Below are positions 4,313 to 22,367 of a stretch of DNA of 28,705 nt, piece after piece. The stretch is from IMG/VR virus record IMGVR_UViG_3300025000_000344, positions 1-28,705 of that record; one strand, written 5' to 3'. The notes beneath the pieces were generated by a model. The model was not told the origin of the DNA and did no database searches. It saw only the letters and a program-made list of their open reading frames with translations. The DNA is from a virus. Made by a program: the position numbers and the translations under genes. How positions within the stretch are numbered: position 1 is the stretch's first letter; each line of letters begins with the position of its first letter.

Positions 4313-5034
4313 GCGTTTAGCCATATTGAAATTGCCTAACAAACTGTAAAATGCCTAACAAACTCGCTTGCATGACTAGCGATTAGAAGATGGTTGTATG
4401 GGCGTTCGATGGTGAACAGTGACATAGTGTGTTCAAAGGTGTCCAAGTGGTGCCAAACGTAACCAAAGGTGGACACATGGACACACATAATTGGCACCAG
4501 ACGGCCACAAAACATATACTAAACGTAACCACCTGGCACCGGCTGGACACGTATAATTGGCACCACCTGGCACCACATTAACACTAACTGGCACCACATG
4601 GACACAGGTAAGCTAAAAAAAAGGTAAGCATTTCAAATAGTTGCATTCCTGTGTGTCCAAACGTGGCCAATAGTGTCCAACCGTACACCACCCCCCTGTG
4701 TCGTGAAGGAGAGGGTGTCTGTTTTAGTATTTAATTTTTTTATTAAATACTTAAATACCAGGTCCAGAGACGGGGGGTGGTGTACGCGCGGACTCTTTTG
4801 ACGCCAACCGTACACAGCCCTCAAATTCCCCAACAATATCAACCACTTACACAACCAACCTGTCACCAACCGTAACCAACCGTCACCAAAACATTACCAC
4901 CCGTAACCAAAAACCGTCACCACCAGGCACCAAACCATTGACAACCGGCACCAACCCATGTTACACTGTCACCAACCGTACACCCTTGCAAGCCACCTAC
5001 GCTTGCTAAACAACCATTCATAAGGAGCCCAACC
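4313..5034 (+). repeat. Non-coding iteron-like tract, candidate replication origin
   Basis: About 720 nt without a credible gene, filled with short interspersed motifs: TGGCACCA (about six copies from 4491 to 4580, variants further right), TGGACAC/GTGTCCA, and AACGTAACCA or ACCAACCGT(A/C)ACC (many copies, 4515 and 4804-4982). Two longer near-copies read TGGACAC-(2-4 nt)-ATAATTGGCACCA near 4478 and 4544. The right half is very poor in G on the plus strand (about 16 G in 4801-4980 by my count). Iteron clusters plus strand asymmetry plus the palindrome at 4682-4786 are typical of replication origins or partition sites; no experiment or homology supports this yet. Confidence 0.55.
4682..4786. repeat. 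Nested perfect inverted repeat
   Basis: Outer arms CGTACACCACCCCCC (4682-4696) and GGGGGGTGGTGTACG (4772-4786) are perfect 15-bp complements. Just inside the right arm lies AGAC (4768-4771), complementary to GTCT (4717-4720). At the centre AGTATTTAAT (4726-4735) and ATTAAATACT (4742-4751) form a perfect 10-bp stem with a T6 loop. A GC-rich outer clamp around an AT-rich central hairpin suits an origin or initiator-binding structure. Confidence 0.85.
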
Positions 5035-7148: not shown

Positions 7149-7361
7149 ATGCCATACACCACACACAACTTTCGAACCAAGAAAGAAATTAAACTTGCCC
7201 TTGCAGCCGGAACAAAGATAACTTGCTTCCAACCAGGACCTTTTGGGCCATCCATTCCTGCGAACGGAACAATCTATTTAGAAGGTCCACACTTTCCAGA
7301 GCCTCACAAATGGTACGGTCAAGGCCAGATGAAGGATGGCCAGTTAATCAGTATTAAATAA
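7149..7361 (+). CDS. Small protein, unknown
   Basis: 70 aa with an AAGGAGC ribosome site. The sequence GTKITCFQPGPFG...NGTIYLEGPHFPEPHKWYGQG looks like a small beta-barrel-type domain with many Gly and Pro turns. It resembles small phage proteins I recall from proteobacterial phages, but I cannot name a family. Confidence 0.7.
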   Translation: MPYTTHNFRTKKEIKLALAAGTKITCFQPGPFGPSIPANGTIYLEGPHFPEPHKWYGQGQMKDGQLISIK

Positions 7362-7363
7362 GA

Positions 7364-7434
7364 TTGACTACCTAATCACCAGGTCAAAGCCTTTGCAAGT
7401 CTAATGGTTTTTGACCTGGTTATGAGTTAGTCAA
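7364..7434 (+). other. Long imperfect stem-loop between operon genes
   Basis: ACCAGGTCAAA (7378-7388) and TTTGACCTGGT (7410-7420) are perfect 11-bp complements, and TTGACTA (7364-7370) pairs with TAGTCAA (7428-7434) outside them. The extended hairpin occupies almost the whole gap between two small genes. TTTAAT follows, so it may terminate weakly, stabilise or process the message. Confidence 0.55.
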
Positions 7435-7462
7435 TTTAATAACCTCAACAATGGAGCCAGCC

Positions 7463-15502: not shown

Positions 15503-15714
15503 ATGTATATTTGCTTTATCGTATTGACTCTGTTGGATATGATGAATATGAAGCCAAAGTAATTATTGCCTTTACAGAAAGTGAGGCCCGTTCATTAGCG
15601 AATGTTAAAACTGCTGATGAAGGTCCAATCTGGAATGATCCCACCAAAGTTGCTTGTGCAAACTTGGATTTAACTGTTGCTCGGGTGGTGCTAGAAGCAT
15701 TTAAGGCAGGGTGA
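15499..15714 (+). CDS. Small phage protein, unknown function
   Basis: 71 aa. VYLLYRIDSVGYDEYEAKVIIAFTESEARSLA matches a frequent phage family as I remember it (YLL...YDEYD..VV.A.SE.EAR..A...W.DPS.V). GGAGG in the previous gene's last codons serves as ribosome site. End of the small-gene block before the HNH gene. Confidence 0.75.
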   Translation: MNVYLLYRIDSVGYDEYEAKVIIAFTESEARSLANVKTADEGPIWNDPTKVACANLDLTVARVVLEAFKAG

Positions 15715-15742
15715 AAAAGAATAAAAAGAGGGCGAAAAACGC

Positions 15743-15771
15743 TTGACAGGGGGGTCTTTTTCGGGTAAGGT
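15743..15771 (+). promoter_or_regulatory. Promoter of the HNH gene, inside the inverted repeat
   Basis: TTGACA (15743-15748), 17-nt spacer, TAAGGT (15766-15771). The spacer is almost exactly the left arm of the inverted repeat at 15750-15827. Transcripts from here would start near 15778, to the right of that arm. Confidence 0.55.
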
Positions 15772-15827
15772 GGGTGAATAAAATTTACGGCAAACGACGA
15801 TAACCCTTTAGCCCGAAAAAGACTCCT
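15750..15827 (+). repeat. Inverted repeat abutting the HNH start codon
   Basis: GGGGTCTTTTTCGGG (15751-15765) pairs with CCCGAAAAAGACTCC (15812-15826) over 15 bp with one G-U, extendable by G-U pairs at both ends. The right arm ends directly before the ATG at 15828. Only messages that read in from upstream carry both arms. A plausible cis-regulator of HNH translation. Confidence 0.75.
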
Positions 15828-16478
15828 ATGAGTAATGAGTTTATAACTGATAAACAGTGGTATGATATCTTACATGAAAAATATTTTTGTCTTCCAGATA
15901 TTGGAATTTTAATAGATAAAAAAACTTTTGATCTCGTGGGAACATTAAATGCAGATGGTTATATTATAACTTCTTTACAAGGTAAAACTGTAGGTGTTCA
16001 TAGAATAGTTTTTTGTATGTTTCATGGATATTTTCCAAAAATAACTGATCATATTAATCGAAATAGAGCAGACAATAGAATTGAAAATCTTCGTGAAATT
16101 TCTGCTTCTGGAAATGTTATAAATACAGATGTACATAAGGATAATCATTCAGGTATTAAGGGAGTTAGATGGTTACGTTATGATAAGCGTTGGAAAGTAA
16201 CTATCACTTATAATAATAAATCAATTTTTATTGGAAATTTTGTAAACTTCATAAATGCTGTAAGAGCTAGATATTATGCAGAGCAAAAACTTGGTTACAA
16301 CGAATATGACATAGTAAGCTCTGCTCAAAAATATCTAATGTGTATTGGCAAATTTTCTTTTAGTTCTAATATTGAAATAGATAAGGAGGAAAGATACAAT
16401 AAAAATTCAGTTGATAATGAATGGAACTTTTTTTGTTTAGAGAAGAAACAAAAGATTGATAAACTTATTAAAAAGTAG
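15828..16478 (+). CDS. Free-standing HNH homing endonuclease with AP2-like domain
   Basis: 216 aa. The HNH core (about residues 54-85) reads VHRIVFCMF..YFPKITDHINRNRADNRIENLR, with the invariant H-N-N pattern. It is followed by an AP2/ERF-like DNA-binding domain (about 103-155: NHSGIKGVRWLRYDKRWKVTI, FIGNF, AVRARYYAEQKLGY). This architecture is typical of phage mobile homing endonucleases that make a site-specific cut near their own insertion point. Codons are strongly AT-rich, unlike the next gene, which fits transfer. The ATG has no clear Shine-Dalgarno; its upstream region is the right arm of the inverted repeat. Confidence 0.9.
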   Translation: MSNEFITDKQWYDILHEKYFCLPDIGILIDKKTFDLVGTLNADGYIITSLQGKTVGVHRIVFCMFHGYFPKITDHINRNRADNRIENLREISASGNVINTDVHKDNHSGIKGVRWLRYDKRWKVTITYNNKSIFIGNFVNFINAVRARYYAEQKLGYNEYDIVSSAQKYLMCIGKFSFSSNIEIDKEERYNKNSVDNEWNFFCLEKKQKIDKLIKK

Positions 16479-16485
16479 TTTGTTT

Positions 16486-16525
16486 GGTGTTTTGTATAAC
16501 ACCTACCAATTGGGCATGTCGCCCA
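16486..16525 (+). other. Two short hairpins after the HNH gene
   Basis: GGTGTT-ttgtat-AACACC (16486-16503) and TGGGC-atgtc-GCCCA (16511-16525) stand in tandem between the HNH stop and the next start. The second is followed only by TTCT, so termination would be weak. They may mark the right edge of the HNH insertion. Confidence 0.4.
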
Positions 16526-16556
16526 TTCTACAAACCCCTAATTAGGAGATTCAAAA

Positions 16557-16919
16557 ATGAGCATGATCAAAGTAGTTAGCAACCAGGCCAGCAGGGAAAT
16601 TACCGTAACTGAGCCGGCAGTCCTTAACCTCGGAACCATTGAAGAAATGGTACAGGCTCTCGGTGAGGATCTTACCGTGAACATGATTAAGAACCAGCTG
16701 AAGGTCAGTTTCCGCGCAGTTATTCGTCGCAAACTTGAAGAGAAAGACGACAATAACGAGTTCAGCAATACTGATGAAGCCATCACGGCTGAGGATTTCA
16801 GCGACTGGAAGCCGACCCTTCGGATTACTAAGACTCCCGAGGAGAAGGCTCTGGAAGCTCTTGGCAATCTGCCTCCGGAAATTCGCGATGCAGTTCTGGC
16901 CCAGTTCAACAATCGGTAA
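16557..16919 (+). CDS. Phage protein with the shared C-terminal motif
   Basis: 120 aa. TTAGGAG precedes the ATG. Codon use is more GC-rich than in the flanking genes, as for the genes at 3430 and 19810, which suggests strong expression. Most of it is helical (IEEMVQALGEDLTVNMIKNQL...). The end carries KALEALGNLPPEIRDAVLAQF, related to the C-termini of the proteins at 3430, 8277 and 23332. Function unknown; it may belong to the same family as the 135-aa protein at 3430. Confidence 0.85.
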   Translation: MSMIKVVSNQASREITVTEPAVLNLGTIEEMVQALGEDLTVNMIKNQLKVSFRAVIRRKLEEKDDNNEFSNTDEAITAEDFSDWKPTLRITKTPEEKALEALGNLPPEIRDAVLAQFNNR

Positions 16920-16965
16920 TTAATTATATTAGATCCTGCCCTGGAGTTTAATGTAATTAATTATT

Positions 16966-17089
16966 TGGTGAGTGGCGGAATAGGTAGACGCAGGTTCAGG
17001 TTCCAGCAAAGTGAGATGATTTATAATCAAAGAACTCCGTTTGAGCCAGGAATGTCTTTGCATGTAAGGTGCAAATCCTTATCTCACCA
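16966..17089 (+). tRNA. tRNA-Leu-like RNA, abnormally long
   Basis: The 5' half matches class II tRNA-Leu very well: acceptor TGGTGAG, TG at 8-9, D stem GCG/CGC around GAATAGGTAGA. The 3' half has a variable-arm hairpin (ATGT-cttt-GCAT, 17052-17063), a T arm TAAGG-TGCAAAT-CCTTA (17065-17081) and CTCACCA pairing with the 5' end over 7 bp. GGTTC (16993-16997) can pair with GAGCC (17043-17047) as an anticodon stem, but 45 nt lie between them instead of 7. There is also one extra base in the T-arm/acceptor joint. Total 124 nt against about 85-87 expected. The anticodon is not assignable; TTCAGGT (CAG) near 16995 resembles the E. coli Leu loop but is not well framed by a stem. Confidence 0.5.
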
Positions 17090-17092
17090 AAT

Positions 17093-17317
17093 TATTTAAT
17101 TTTAATGCCGGAAACGCATTGGATAGCAAGTCCATGCGCACCATTCGACCTGAATTGACAGGTATCGCCAGCATGACGATGTTGGAATCGGCTTCTTAGT
17201 TAAAAGCATACCGAAACTTATAATTGAAAGTTTAAATAATTATAGGTTGGTGTTAAATCGGGTAGCCAGATATGACCTAACTCTGGCATTTTTAAATTCA
17301 ACGAGAGGATTTCTCAA
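17093..17317 (+). ncRNA. Hairpin-rich untranslated region, possible structured RNA
   Basis: 225 nt without a gene, between the tRNA-like RNA and the nuclease gene. Stems visible: CGCAT(t)GGA/TCCATGCG with a 7-nt loop (17115-17138), ACCTG/CAGGT (17148-17163), CCAGCAT-gacg-ATGTTGG (17168-17185), closed by GCCG (17107-17110) with CGGC (17189-17192), so the three hairpins form a cloverleaf-like unit of about 86 nt. AAACTT/AAGTTT and a terminator-like stem follow. It could be a riboswitch-like leader, a degenerate tRNA or a phage RNA. It does not match any tRNA I can complete. Confidence 0.35.
17265..17295 (+). terminator. Terminator-like hairpin before the nuclease gene
   Basis: GCCAGA (17265-17270) and TCTGGC (17282-17287) form a 6-bp stem with an 11-nt loop followed by ATTTTTAAA. 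The loop bases GACCTA can also pair with TAGGTT (17243-17248), which would make a pseudoknot or an alternative fold. It would end the tRNA-like transcript or attenuate the nuclease gene. Confidence 0.4.
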
Positions 17318-18289
17318 ATGAATTTTTACGAAAAAATAGACTACAGTGCATTATCCACCTATCTCACGTGTCCACGCAGGTTCCTGTTCCAATATGTAAT
17401 GAACCTCAAGCCTGCCGGACAATCCATCCACCTTGTGTTTGGCTCATGCTGGCATTACGGCCTAGAAGCCACGTACAACATCTTAATTAAGGATTCTTCA
17501 CCATCTGTTCTTGATGCCACTGAAATCTCCATCAAAGCATTCCATAAGCTCTGGAAGCTTGATGGTGAACCATTTTGGAAAAATGAAGATGCAATCTTTC
17601 CCAAATCTCCCGGACATGCCGCTAACATGTACAAAGGCTATTGGGATCGCTTTCTTGTAAGTGATGTAAAAAATCGTTCAATCCTGGCTGTTGAAGCACC
17701 ATTTTCCATCGACCTATCTGTAAAAGGATTGAAGTTGCCAAATTATATTGGTCGCATCGACCTGATCTTTTCCAGTGGTGAGAATGGAATTGATATTCTC
17801 GACCACAAAACCGCTAAAGCTATCTACTCTACTACGCCACAAACTTTTGAAATGTCATTCCAGTCAGACGGTTATTTAACCGCTGGCAGAATTTTTTATG
17901 ATAAAATCCCAACCATTACGTATCGTGTGGCTCTTTGTCAGAAAAGCAAGATTGACTTCGTCCCAATTACAATTAACAAACGATCCGCTGCTATTGAGCA
18001 CTTCCTGTCTGATCTTTGTCATTATGCCGATGAGATTCAGCACAACTTAAACCTGCTTGAAGAGGATAAGGTTAACTGCCGGGAACGTTCGGATGTATTG
18101 CAATCCTTCCACAGGAATCCAGGCTATGCTTGTACAACCTTCAGCTCAACTTGTCCTTATTATGATCTTTGCAGACTCCGAAATAATCCATTGCACTGGA
18201 TGGAAAAAGCGCCTCAAGGATTTATTCATTCTGAATGGGACCCAGATAAACATGAAGCAAATACTAAGCAAAGATTAATGGAGGTATAA
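17318..18289 (+). CDS. Cas4/RecB-like PD-(D/E)XK nuclease with four-Cys site
   Basis: 323 aa exonuclease-type protein for DNA recombination or end processing. The fold signature is N-terminal SALSTYLTCPRRF (Cys18), then GRIDLIF (about D148), then DILDHKTAK (D162, K164), then QSDGYLTA, as in the PDDEXK_1/RecB-Cas4 family. Three more Cys near the end (C272, C279, C285 in CTTFSSTCPYYDLC) complete the 1+3 arrangement that holds a 4Fe-4S cluster in Cas4 and AddB. It lies upstream of a Sak4-like ATPase and a DUF669-like protein, a known recombination grouping. Its ribosome site GAGAGGA sits in the loop of a small hairpin (GAGA/TCTC, 17303-17315). Confidence 0.9.
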   Translation: MNFYEKIDYSALSTYLTCPRRFLFQYVMNLKPAGQSIHLVFGSCWHYGLEATYNILIKDSSPSVLDATEISIKAFHKLWKLDGEPFWKNEDAIFPKSPGHAANMYKGYWDRFLVSDVKNRSILAVEAPFSIDLSVKGLKLPNYIGRIDLIFSSGENGIDILDHKTAKAIYSTTPQTFEMSFQSDGYLTAGRIFYDKIPTITYRVALCQKSKIDFVPITINKRSAAIEHFLSDLCHYADEIQHNLNLLEEDKVNCRERSDVLQSFHRNPGYACTTFSSTCPYYDLCRLRNNPLHWMEKAPQGFIHSEWDPDKHEANTKQRLMEV

Positions 18290-18291
18290 TA

Positions 18292-18618
18292 ATGGACTTA
18301 CAAGAACTAGAAAAAGTTACTGTAATGATTAATAGTCTTGGTGATAAAGCACTTGATGGGTTTACATTATTTATTGGAGCTAATTTTATAACTAATGTCA
18401 TTAGTTATGGAGTTGGTGTATTAGCTTTAGTTCTAGTATTTAAATTAGTTAAACTCACTTTAAACGCTGTAAGCATTAACATGAAAGCTATTGCAGCTTT
18501 ATGCAAATTGCGTACTATACTAAAAGTTGGTTGTGCAGGAACATTAGTTGATTCAGAAATTGATGAAATAGTTAAAAAAGTAACACTGTTAATACAATGT
18601 GAGAAAAATAATTCTTAA
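18292..18618 (+). CDS. Small membrane protein, unknown
   Basis: 108 aa. Hydrophobic segments at about residues 23-33 and 34-55 (ISYGVGVLALVLVFKLVKL); the rest is amphipathic with three Cys. AT-rich codons, quite unlike the two flanking recombination genes, so it looks like an inserted extra gene. GGAGG lies before the start, overlapping the end of the nuclease gene. Confidence 0.65.
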   Translation: MDLQELEKVTVMINSLGDKALDGFTLFIGANFITNVISYGVGVLALVLVFKLVKLTLNAVSINMKAIAALCKLRTILKVGCAGTLVDSEIDEIVKKVTLLIQCEKNNS

Positions 18619-18653
18619 ACATTGTTTATTAAAATCATTTAAAGGAGTTTTAA

Positions 18654-19460
18654 ATGAATCCACAGGCAGCTACAGTACCAAATTTCAACAAAACAAAGCT
18701 AACTGAAAAGCAACGAATCTTTAATCTCAAATTTCTACTGACCGGCAATTCAGGTTCTGGCAAAACCCACTTCACAGCAACCTACACCAAGGGACCACTT
18801 CACTACTATATGTTCGATAAAGGAGGCGAAAAGACAATAGAGAAAATAGCATCCAAAAGAACTGACATCACCATAGATAATTTCTCAGCCGACTCTTTAC
18901 TCTTTTCCGATTTTTGGCGTACCTTCCAGGAGGATGAAAAAAATGGTTTATTCCAATGGCTGAAGGAACAGTCAGGCATGTTAGTTCTGGACTCTCTGAC
19001 TAATGCAAACAAAAAGGCAATCCACGAAATCGAAAAGAAATCTGGTATCACTCCATCTGGCATCGGTAAAAAGATTGACATGAAGATGGGCATGGCGCCT
19101 GCTCATTGGGGCCAGTTACTTAATTGGATGAGTACTTTAGTAAGTTCACTCCAGGAACTTCCTTGTGCAGTTGCAGTAACTGTCCATTTGCATACACTTA
19201 TGAATTCTGATCAAGAAGTAGTAGCAAGATATCCCGCAGTCAACGGTCAATTCCGTCAGTTGCTTGCAGCAGATTTTGACGAAGCCTACCTATTGACGAC
19301 ACAAGGAACTAAGAGGCAGATATTCTTTACTGAAAAACTTGCATTTGAAGCAAAGTCACGAGTGTTTGATATGCCAAAGGTTGAAGGAATATCAATGGAT
19401 CAATTGGCAGCAGCTTATTTGGCAGGCAAAACAGTTATTCCACAATCCATCTCAGCGTGA
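18654..19460 (+). CDS. Sak4-like RecA-fold ATPase (recombination)
   Basis: 268 aa. Walker A GNSGSGKT at residues 31-38; Walker B GMLVLDSLTNA with D113; a later VTVHLHTLMN segment and ADFDEAYLLTTQG are typical of the phage AAA_24/Sak4 group. These proteins are short RecA-core ATPases that assist single-strand annealing and recombination together with a phage ssDNA-binding protein. A DUF669-like gene follows 350 nt downstream, which supports this. AAAGGAG precedes the ATG. A role as a generic phage nucleotide-binding protein is the alternative. Confidence 0.88.
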   Translation: MNPQAATVPNFNKTKLTEKQRIFNLKFLLTGNSGSGKTHFTATYTKGPLHYYMFDKGGEKTIEKIASKRTDITIDNFSADSLLFSDFWRTFQEDEKNGLFQWLKEQSGMLVLDSLTNANKKAIHEIEKKSGITPSGIGKKIDMKMGMAPAHWGQLLNWMSTLVSSLQELPCAVAVTVHLHTLMNSDQEVVARYPAVNGQFRQLLAADFDEAYLLTTQGTKRQIFFTEKLAFEAKSRVFDMPKVEGISMDQLAAAYLAGKTVIPQSISA

Positions 19461-19491
19461 CTAATTTAGATTAATTAAAGGAGTTTTAATT

Positions 19492-19692
19492 ATGAAAATT
19501 GGATTCAAACCAAAAAGTTATAATGACGTTATATGTTTTGAGATTCCTAATAAAGAGGATGACCAATTTATAGATGATATTTTTAATTCTATTTCAGTAA
19601 GTTCAGAAGGAGAGCTTGACTTTGTAGTAACAGTCACAGGTAAAAAGCCTAATACAGATGAATATGTTAACCCAAAAGATGAAAACAAATAA
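19492..19692 (+). CDS. Small acidic protein, unknown
   Basis: 66 aa with a strong AAAGGAG site. Acidic, beta strands likely (DFVVTVTGKK). AT-rich codons. It separates the ATPase from the DUF669-like gene. No family recognised. Confidence 0.68.
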   Translation: MKIGFKPKSYNDVICFEIPNKEDDQFIDDIFNSISVSSEGELDFVVTVTGKKPNTDEYVNPKDENK

Positions 19693-19752
19693 AAAGGAGA
19701 AAACAAGACACTCAAAACAAAAACTAATAATTAACTAAAAGCAACCAACTTT

Positions 19753-19777
19753 TGACTGAAGAATAGTTCTTTAGTCA
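19753..19777 (+). other. 11-bp hairpin in the leader of the DUF669-like gene
   Basis: TGACTGAAGAA-tag-TTCTTTAGTCA pairs fully with one G-U and a 3-nt loop. No U-run follows. It stands about 30 nt before the start of a probably highly expressed gene, so mRNA stabilisation or processing is likely. Confidence 0.5.
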
Positions 19778-19809
19778 CGCATCAAAAACAATTTAAAGGA
19801 GTATTAACT

Positions 19810-20232
19810 ATGTCTATGATTCCTAATCTGTCCGAAATTCCTGACAAAGCACCTGTTGAAGCTGGCGAATATGACCTGACCATCTCTAAGGTCAAAGAGA
19901 CCAAGTCTCAGCGAACCGGAAGATATGGTTGTCAACTCATTATTAACGTCGACGGAGAAGATAACGCATCAACTATTTTTCATACTCTCTGGTATGGCAA
20001 CTACAAAGATTATCAGGGCGATGATGAAGAAAAGAATAACCTCATGTGGCGGATGGTTAAAGATTTCCTTCGTGCCCTGGGGCTTGATCCCGACCAGGAA
20101 ACCGACGAATCTGATCTGGTTGGACTCAACTTTACGGCTGAACTCAGTTATAACGATGGTATGAGTACTGACGATGACGGTAATCTAGTTCGGGTTGGTC
20201 AGCCAAGGAATGAAATTGCTCGTGTAGTTTAA
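19810..20232 (+). CDS. DUF669-like protein, putative ssDNA-binding protein
   Basis: 140 aa. The pattern PVEAGEYDLTISKVKETKSQRTGRYG...LIINVDGEDNASTIFHTLWYGN...FLRALGLDPDQ...DLVGLNFTAEL is that of the DUF669-type phage proteins found next to Sak4 ATPases and proposed to be OB-fold single-strand binding partners. The acidic segments and position after the ATPase agree. Codon use is GC-richer than its neighbours and AAAGGAG precedes the ATG, so it is probably abundant, as expected for an SSB. Binding is inferred, not shown. Confidence 0.8.
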   Translation: MSMIPNLSEIPDKAPVEAGEYDLTISKVKETKSQRTGRYGCQLIINVDGEDNASTIFHTLWYGNYKDYQGDDEEKNNLMWRMVKDFLRALGLDPDQETDESDLVGLNFTAELSYNDGMSTDDDGNLVRVGQPRNEIARVV

Positions 20233-20244
20233 TAACGGAGCTTT

Positions 20245-20328
20245 ATGTTCAAGTTTAATTCGATATTAGAGTCTAGTTACCACTTTCAGTTAGCTAGGTC
20301 TGGCATTGCCGGAACAATGTCATTCTGA
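20245..20328 (+). CDS. Possible mini-protein
   Basis: 27 codons (MFKFNSILESSYHFQLARSG...) after AACGGAG at good spacing, 12 nt downstream of the previous stop. Nothing else supports it; it could be a chance frame in the structured gap. Confidence 0.3.
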   Translation: MFKFNSILESSYHFQLARSGIAGTMSF

Positions 20329-20558
20329 ACGAGGCGTTGATGTGACGCCTACAAGATATCGGAATAAGCAAAACATGCTGTTCACTTATGAACGAACTGT
20401 TGAATGATTCGCAAGTAAGTGAACAGCAACTTTTCTTTTCTTGTGAGCCAATACTAGGATGACAACCTAACATCATTCCTCGTCAGAATTGATGGGTATT
20501 GTCTCACAAGAGTAGAAAAGTAGGAAAAGATTTTTTCCAATATAATAGGAGCTCACCT
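20329..20558 (+). other. Structured non-coding gap before the ligase gene
   Basis: Holds the hairpin AGGCGT-tgatgtg-ACGCCT (20332-20350), the long stem described next, and GGAAAA-gatt-TTTTCC (20523-20538). The last is followed by AATATAATAGGAGC, in which TATAAT has no -35 at normal spacing. An in-frame ATG at 20499 upstream of the ligase lies in this gap and lacks a ribosome site. Confidence 0.45.
20376..20440 (+). terminator. Long-stem terminator containing the GTTCA dyad
   Basis: TGCTGTTCACTTA (20376-20388) and TAAGTGAACAGCA (20416-20428) form a perfect 13-bp stem with a 27-nt loop, followed by ACTTTTCTTTTC. This probably ends the recombination operon. The left arm also contains the near-dyad GTTCACTTATGAAC (20380-20393) shared with 2616 and 7698, so the same bases could serve protein binding. 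Confidence 0.6.
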
Positions 20559-22367
20559 ATGAATCACGAACAACTCATAAAAGAAATCTCCCAAGCAAAC
20601 ATGGCCTATGCTTCCGGCATACCATTCATGACAGACTCTGAATACGATCTGTTATGGCAACAACTTTATGCAATAGACCCTCATAACAATATCCTCTACC
20701 ATACCGCACAAGGTCGTACTGCTCTTACTGGCAAAACCTGGCACAAGCATCCAATCTATGGAACGAACAAAGCATTCAACATGCTCGACCTTAAGCCATT
20801 TCTTACAAGATTTGGCAGCTACAAACTTCGGATCGAACCCAAATACGATGGTTGTGCAGCAGTTATAACCCTTACAGATACTGGAGTAAATATAACCCTT
20901 GAGGGTGACGGCAGATGTGGACGAGACATAACTCACTTAATGCCATACATTACGTTTCCATTTCAGCTGCGGCATTTTCAACCAGTCGAGATTCTCATCC
21001 CACTGAACGAGTGGAATCCAGATTATGGAGCAAACCCAAGAAATGTAGTCGCCGGCTGGTTAGACCGCAAATATGACAAGCCTTCTGCCATGATGACAGC
21101 AATACCCCATAATCATGGCGACCTATTTGAAGAGTATACTTACTCCGGTAGCTTAGAAGCTATGGGAGATTTTCTGCTTGATACATATAACAAATGGTCA
21201 AAAATCTATCCCATGGATGGACTTATGATTAAGGTAGCTGATGAAAAAGTTAGGCTAGTCGCAGGTAATAATGGACAGACCAATAACTGGAGCATAGCTT
21301 GGAAGCCTCCAATTCAAGTTAAAGAAACAAAAGTTGTTAATATCGAATGGAATATTAGTAGGCTCGGCAGGGCAATACCAACAGTTGTCTATGAACCAAT
21401 TGAGCTTTGTGGCACAACTAATAACCGAGTAACAGGCAACAATGCTCAGTGGGTTAAAGATCGTAATATCATGGTAGGTTCAACTATATCTGTGGGCAAA
21501 GCAGGTGAGATAATCCCTAAGATCCTGGAAGTTAACAATAATGATTTAAGAAATCAATCAATGGCATTAGCTTTTAAAAGTAATTATGGACCTAAAGATT
21601 TAACAGATATTTCTATTAATTTACCAATTCATTGCCCAAAGTGTAGTGAAATTCTCCAGTGGGAAGGAGTACACCTTGTCTGTAATGGAAACAATTGCAT
21701 AGCTAAGTTGATCGTTTCCATTGCTTACTTCTACTCTCAGAAGGGTATCAAAATCGACGGGGTTGGCGAAGGCATTATAGAAAAGCTACTCCAGAATGAA
21801 AAATGCTATTCAGTTCTTTCAACCAAGCCTTGGGCCTTACTTGATCCTCTTAGCTACGATCTTGTGCCGGACATTATAAATACAATCGGCGTAACAATTT
21901 ATAGTAACATCGCTGAACAAGTATTTTCAATGAATAATCAATGCACAATGGCACATTTTGTAGCCGGGCTTGGCTTACCAGGATTAGCTTATAAGTCCTC
22001 TTTGAGGCTTTGCCAATATTTAAGAACCGGCCAAATTAATATTCACATAACTGATAATGCAAAACGTAGCTTTGTTGAAGCTGCTACTATTTATACCGAA
22101 GCAATTAAGGAAATGAAAAACTTCTCCTTCGCCACATTACCTAGTGAAGCGAAAGCAATTTATTGCATTACCGGATCGTTAAGCCAGTCACGAGAAACTA
22201 TGATTGAAATTTTGAACGGTTATGGATATGAATTTTCATCTGGAGTAACGAGGGAAACAAATTACTTGGTCGTCGGAGATGACCCAGGCAGAACTAAGAT
22301 AGAAAAGGCAACTCGTTACAACATCCCTCAGATAACTGAGGAACAACTTTTTAACCTTTTACGGTGA
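20559..22367 (+). CDS. ligA: NAD-dependent DNA ligase
   Basis: 602 aa. Seals nicks using NAD+. The order of domains follows LigA: N-terminal Ia-like helices (about 1-45), adenylation domain with EPKYDG (catalytic Lys95) and EGDGRCGRDIT, PMDGLMIKV, OB fold (SIAWKPP...NISRLGRAIPTVVYEP...VGSTISVGKAGEIIPKI), four-Cys zinc finger (HCPKC near 358, then C and C), helix-hairpin-helix region (YSQKGIKIDGVGEGIIEKL), and BRCT from about 530 to the end (CITGSLSQSRETMIEIL...TNYLVVGDDPG). Slightly shorter than bacterial LigA (about 670). The ATG at 20559 with AGGAGC is preferred to 20499. The stretch 21540-21640 is more AT-rich than the rest. Confidence 0.93.
   Translation: MNHEQLIKEISQANMAYASGIPFMTDSEYDLLWQQLYAIDPHNNILYHTAQGRTALTGKTWHKHPIYGTNKAFNMLDLKPFLTRFGSYKLRIEPKYDGCAAVITLTDTGVNITLEGDGRCGRDITHLMPYITFPFQLRHFQPVEILIPLNEWNPDYGANPRNVVAGWLDRKYDKPSAMMTAIPHNHGDLFEEYTYSGSLEAMGDFLLDTYNKWSKIYPMDGLMIKVADEKVRLVAGNNGQTNNWSIAWKPPIQVKETKVVNIEWNISRLGRAIPTVVYEPIELCGTTNNRVTGNNAQWVKDRNIMVGSTISVGKAGEIIPKILEVNNNDLRNQSMALAFKSNYGPKDLTDISINLPIHCPKCSEILQWEGVHLVCNGNNCIAKLIVSIAYFYSQKGIKIDGVGEGIIEKLLQNEKCYSVLSTKPWALLDPLSYDLVPDIINTIGVTIYSNIAEQVFSMNNQCTMAHFVAGLGLPGLAYKSSLRLCQYLRTGQINIHITDNAKRSFVEAATIYTEAIKEMKNFSFATLPSEAKAIYCITGSLSQSRETMIEILNGYGYEFSSGVTRETNYLVVGDDPGRTKIEKATRYNIPQITEEQLFNLLR

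Follow-up and report, generated by a model that had tools for sequence, protein, structure and literature searches.

A phage replication operon with an HNH endonuclease gene in its 5' leader, and a promoter–leader inverted repeat that appears private to one lineage

Results

An HNH gene between a promoter and the leader of a replication operon

The record, a virus contig of 28.7 kb, was analysed over its whole length and is referred to hereafter as the window. Its DNA gave no match to named phages. Profile searches indicated that it encodes a terminase, a UvrD-like helicase, a PDDEXK nuclease, a Sak4-like ATPase, an NAD ligase, a methyltransferase and PolA. At 15828–16478, on the plus strand, lies a free-standing homing endonuclease gene of the HNH_3/phrog_99 type, whose 216-aa product matched Pfam HNH_3 (E = 5.8e-14) and the phrog_99 HNH endonuclease profile (E = 5.1e-44). 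The product carries the motif DHINR...DNRIENLR, and DHIN.R..DNRI.NLRE is invariant across the HNH lineages described below. A search of named phages with the nuclease returned just three distant matches.

The HNH gene is preceded on the same strand by a sigma70-type promoter (15743–15771) that matches its pattern with zero mismatches: TTGACA at 15743–15748, a 17-nt spacer and TAAGGT at 15766–15771. It is followed by a plus-strand hairpin, GGGC-loop-GCCC (16513–16527), in the leader of a conserved 120-aa gene (16557–16919, plus strand), the first native gene behind the promoter. The 120-aa protein was found at 42 viral-contig loci at 46–100% identity, with and without an HNH gene, while searches of Pfam, PHROG and named phages gave no match to it; no relative was found in genome contigs searched for a host. 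The GGGC..GCCC hairpin lies about 30–50 nt upstream of the 120-aa ATG in nearly all relatives, and in the most distant of them it shows A-U for G-C changes (GGATC..GATCC and similar). The leader hairpin may serve the 120-aa protein as an RNA operator.

The first-pass annotation had remarked on the missing Shine-Dalgarno (SD) sequence of the HNH gene. This was upheld: no SD-like match was present in the 18 nt upstream of the predicted ATG at 15828, while 31 of the 41 open reading frames surveyed in the window possess one. By inspection, none was seen before the predicted HNH starts of the related phages L014, L015 and L058 either.

The promoter precedes the operon with and without the HNH gene

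The locus was compared with about 30 related IMG/VR phages. An HNH gene is present at this site, between the promoter and the leader hairpin, in three diverged lineages: the window with L014 and L156; L012, L013, L015 and L078, whose HNH products are about 50% identical to that of the window; and L058. It is absent from L002, L003, L006, L007, L016, L022 and others, which keep the same promoter and leader. This presence and absence at one site points to a mobile homing endonuclease insertion, homing itself being read from the pattern.

In the HNH-free relatives, the 120-aa gene is preceded by a promoter of the form TTGACA-17-TAnnGT, itself behind A-rich sequence. The GGGC..GCCC hairpin and then AGGAG come after this promoter; the distance from the -10 hexamer to the ATG is typically 103–110 nt. 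About 28 distinct relatives have an equivalent promoter, with a 17-nt spacer, ahead of either the 120-aa gene or the HNH gene. Comparison of these 28 promoters showed conserved hexamers and variability at most spacer positions. They had been picked by eye, and an objective scan of spacer lengths was run as a check. A spacer of 17 alone was clearly enriched: scores of 10/12 or more were reached in 18 of the 29 upstream regions, as compared with 0.62 expected. No enrichment of TTGACA/TAAGGT-type patterns, as of a repeated phage promoter, was seen within the window.

Because the promoter precedes the 120-aa gene both with and without the HNH gene, and because the spacer of 17 is enriched at the operon loci, the comparison indicates that it is an ancestral promoter, native to the replication operon downstream, and does not belong to the HNH gene. 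The description of this element as the HNH gene's promoter thus stands as to the promoter but fails as to its owner. Across the relatives, the promoter, the position of the insertion and the missing SD are all conserved at the sequence level.

An inverted repeat joins the promoter spacer to the HNH start

Two 15-nt arms on the plus strand, 15751–15765 and 15812–15826, are 93% complementary and separated by 46 nt. The geometry that the first-pass annotation had proposed was borne out in each respect: the repeat exists at its claimed length of 15 bp, its left arm lies inside the spacer of TTGACA-17-TAAGGT, and its right arm, in the leader stretch preceding the HNH gene, stops one base short of the ATG. 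The predicted RNA stem reaches further than the arms, pairing roughly 15750–15774 with 15794–15827, and the minimum free energy (MFE) of 15735–15860 is -38.6 kcal/mol (z = -4.3; none of 200 shuffles as low).

These features could have arisen by chance, if a promoter spacer that is GC-rich and then T-rich happened to complement an A/GC-rich leader; such an origin is compatible with the explanation preferred below, and we regard it as an even call. Among 60 shuffles of the whole 28.7-kb window, 15 to 20 (25–33%) held a repeat of this length within 110 bp, and four longer inverted repeats occur elsewhere in the real window, at 4682, 7363, 20376 and 20429. Against chance, none of 400 shuffles of the 135 bp preceding the HNH start matched the length of the repeat, and its arms coincide exactly with promoter and start codon, a coincidence judged after the fact. 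The repeat is locally striking and less special at the scale of the whole window.

The pairing is not shared by related phages

If the repeat served the HNH gene, it might be expected to travel with it, a check that had been suggested with the original proposal. It does not. L014 and L156, the nearest relatives with an HNH gene, have the leader and the HNH type of the window, but their spacers, AAGCACCGGGTTCCGGT and AAGTACCGGGTTTCGTT, are unrelated to the window's GGGGGGTCTTTTTCGGG, and no comparable pairing of spacer and leader was found in any of the HNH-bearing L014, L156, L012, L015 and L058. A hairpin travelling with the HNH gene was rejected on this ground; the pairing is poorly conserved at homologous loci, an outcome that the proposal had itself named as adverse to it.

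Inspection by eye had hinted, in L003, L006 and L016, that all relatives might pair spacer with leader in changing sequence. For 29 relatives, five of them with an HNH gene, the duplex energy of the cognate promoter and leader was compared with the energies that the same promoter gave with all the other leaders. There was no excess of own-partner pairing over swapped partners (3009 of 5000 permutations were at least as strong), and this candidate was also rejected. L014 pairs with its own leader at -14.3 kcal/mol, and 23 of 29 swaps rank above it. Only the window stands out, at -33.9 kcal/mol (z = -4.57 against shuffled leaders). A non-cognate swap, the L014 promoter with the L065 leader, reaches -33.7 kcal/mol, so that a single case of -33.9 among some 30 loci is not compelling; swaps as strong as this made up 1 of 812, which, with about 30 loci examined, favours chance.

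A leader resembling the right arm, AGCCC-AAAAAAGCC, also occurs in the HNH-free L021 and, less closely, in L020. Since these phages carry it without an HNH gene, the right arm appears to be ancestral leader rather than part of an HNH cassette, and its sequence seems to be older than the insertion. The upstream flank of the window matches L015 and L078 while its leader matches L014 and L156, which suggests that the window is a mosaic. Its right arm differs from the corresponding sequence of L014 at three bases, and each of the three creates or strengthens a pair with the window's left arm. These changes would fit either a quasi-palindrome template switch or recent selection for pairing. Scanning viral contigs for the pattern of either arm yielded 41 stretches, none with the 120-aa gene and none from a related locus; the sole HNH match among them was one of 34% in L182.

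The comparison was confined to IMG/VR relatives, and as the searches may leave out records very near the window, near-identical phages with the hairpin may exist; among the relatives compared, the long pairing appears to be private to this window.

Discussion

A probable promoterless cassette on a borrowed promoter

We consider it probable that the HNH gene is a promoterless cassette in the 5' leader of the operon, living on a borrowed promoter, and that the repeat is private to this lineage and no established regulatory part. The gene would have inserted downstream of the operon's sigma70-type promoter and ahead of the hairpin in the leader of the first native gene. It would then be transcribed from the operon promoter, in addition to any read-through from upstream genes, and probably poorly translated, for want of an SD. 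The repeat would have arisen in this lineage alone, through divergence of the fast-changing promoter spacer, recombination within it, or a quasi-palindrome template switch, and it may incidentally lower HNH translation from read-through RNA. Two observations tell against this reading, namely the local strength of the pairing, in both the shuffled-leader and the 400-shuffle comparisons, and the fact that all three right-arm differences from L014 favour pairing.

Quasi-palindrome template-switch mutations produce near-perfect inverted repeats, and the window's repeat resembles such products in being near-perfect and limited to one lineage. The proposed cassette fits, by analogy, with the way in which existing promoters are harnessed in phage T4, where seven free-standing endonucleases use upstream promoters and half of the free-standing endonucleases are without a recognisable translation initiation region (PMC2988022). 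Like those genes, this one is intergenic, has the orientation of its neighbours and would use an existing phage promoter (PMC2988022). It differs from them in its HNH_3/phrog_99 type, in sitting directly behind an operon promoter and ahead of the first gene's native leader, and in belonging to unrelated phages.

The first-pass annotation had proposed a switch like those of phage T4, in which read-through RNA carries both arms and hides the HNH start while RNA from the local promoter begins past the left arm and is translated. The folding predictions for the window agree with its geometry. The MFE is -47.5 for read-through RNA and -11.6 for local RNA, and the mean unpaired probability around the AUG is 0.22 and 0.56, respectively, so that the start is predicted to be covered in the former and freer in the latter. 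The low z-score of the fold points the same way, as does the run of annotated-looking genes from 5035 onward, which lie upstream of the HNH gene and all on the same strand. The precedent is established in T4 (PMC2988022, PMC3014915): as in I-TevI, I-TevII, I-TevIII, segB and Aeh1 mobE, the hairpin would form only on read-through RNA, and the promoter lies within the left-arm stretch.

Other results speak against such a switch. The pairing is conserved in none of the five HNH-bearing relatives, including those that share the leader, and in the four of these that were folded the predicted unpaired probability was 0.42–0.52 for read-through RNA as compared with 0.56–0.58 for local RNA. The promoter appears to be the operon's own and is of sigma70 type, whereas those of the I-Tev systems are phage late or middle promoters. 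In I-TevI, II and III, moreover, the hairpin conceals a consensus SD (PMC2988022); the comparison with T4 is weakened because there is no SD here to hide. A T4-like switch is physically possible in this lineage according to the fold predictions, without evolutionary support from the relatives; we judge it unlikely, and the hairpin is probably no established switch of the phage T4 kind. Less likely again is the specific version in which the borrowed sigma70 promoter has a fast-evolving spacer that became tuned for pairing with the start region of the endonuclease gene, as a recent, SD-independent form of T4-style silencing. If the hairpin were a switch, it would offer a recent and testable origin of such translational silencing.

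The repeat might instead act as DNA, as a palindromic operator whose two arms are bound by a repressor, or by the HNH protein itself, with regulation of the promoter. The operator through which I-TevI represses its own gene overlaps the late promoter of that gene (PMC2988022), and here one arm overlaps the promoter. With arms 46 bp apart, and with a left arm that is not conserved in relatives carrying the same HNH type, we hold this to be highly improbable.

Under the cassette reading that we prefer, the three diverged lineages at one site suggest that a homing endonuclease can persist in first position behind the promoter of an essential operon. The locus also carries a caution, in that a promoter-hairpin arrangement which looks convincing in one genome can be private to its lineage.

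Other structured elements in the window

A known RNA family or a group I intron was considered for the region and rejected: no Rfam match was obtained at gathering level, nor at E <= 0.5 in 15700–20600.

Upstream of the NAD ligase reading frame lies a hairpin at 20375–20432, in which a near-symmetric GAA/CAA internal loop separates an outer stem of 15 pairs from an inner stem. At least 13 distinct relatives have the hairpin at the corresponding place, and its GAA/CAA loop is likewise conserved. Eight of its 20 pairs have changed on both sides (29 double-changed cells, as compared with 10.6 ± 3.3 in shuffles). Pairing holds in 92% of cells, as compared with 31–44% when slid. The hairpin had no match in Rfam. 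By this evidence from sequence comparison it appears to be a much better RNA element than the repeat at 15751–15826, and it is possibly an undescribed structured RNA or replication element. Directly after it, at 20425–20525, a long hairpin (-37.4 kcal/mol) overlaps the listed TTG start of the ligase reading frame, which suggests that the true start of the ligase lies further in.

Two intergenic hairpins lie upstream of the HNH locus. That at 4675–4795 (121 nt) is very stable (-57.7 kcal/mol), with arms ACCGTACACCACCCCCC and GGGGGGTGGTGTACG, and part of it matches L156. The other, at 7358–7440 (83 nt, -32.7 kcal/mol), is near-perfect and was otherwise found only in L155 and L156, at 85–89% identity. 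Behind the 120-aa gene, 16966–17092 holds a tRNA-Leu-like sequence, GGTGAGTGGCGGAATAGGTAGACGCAG ... GGTGCAAATCCTTATCTCACCA, for which ARAGORN made no call. L006 has separate matches to its 5' and 3' parts, and L012 a match to the 5' part; the sequence is possibly a decayed or interrupted tRNA.
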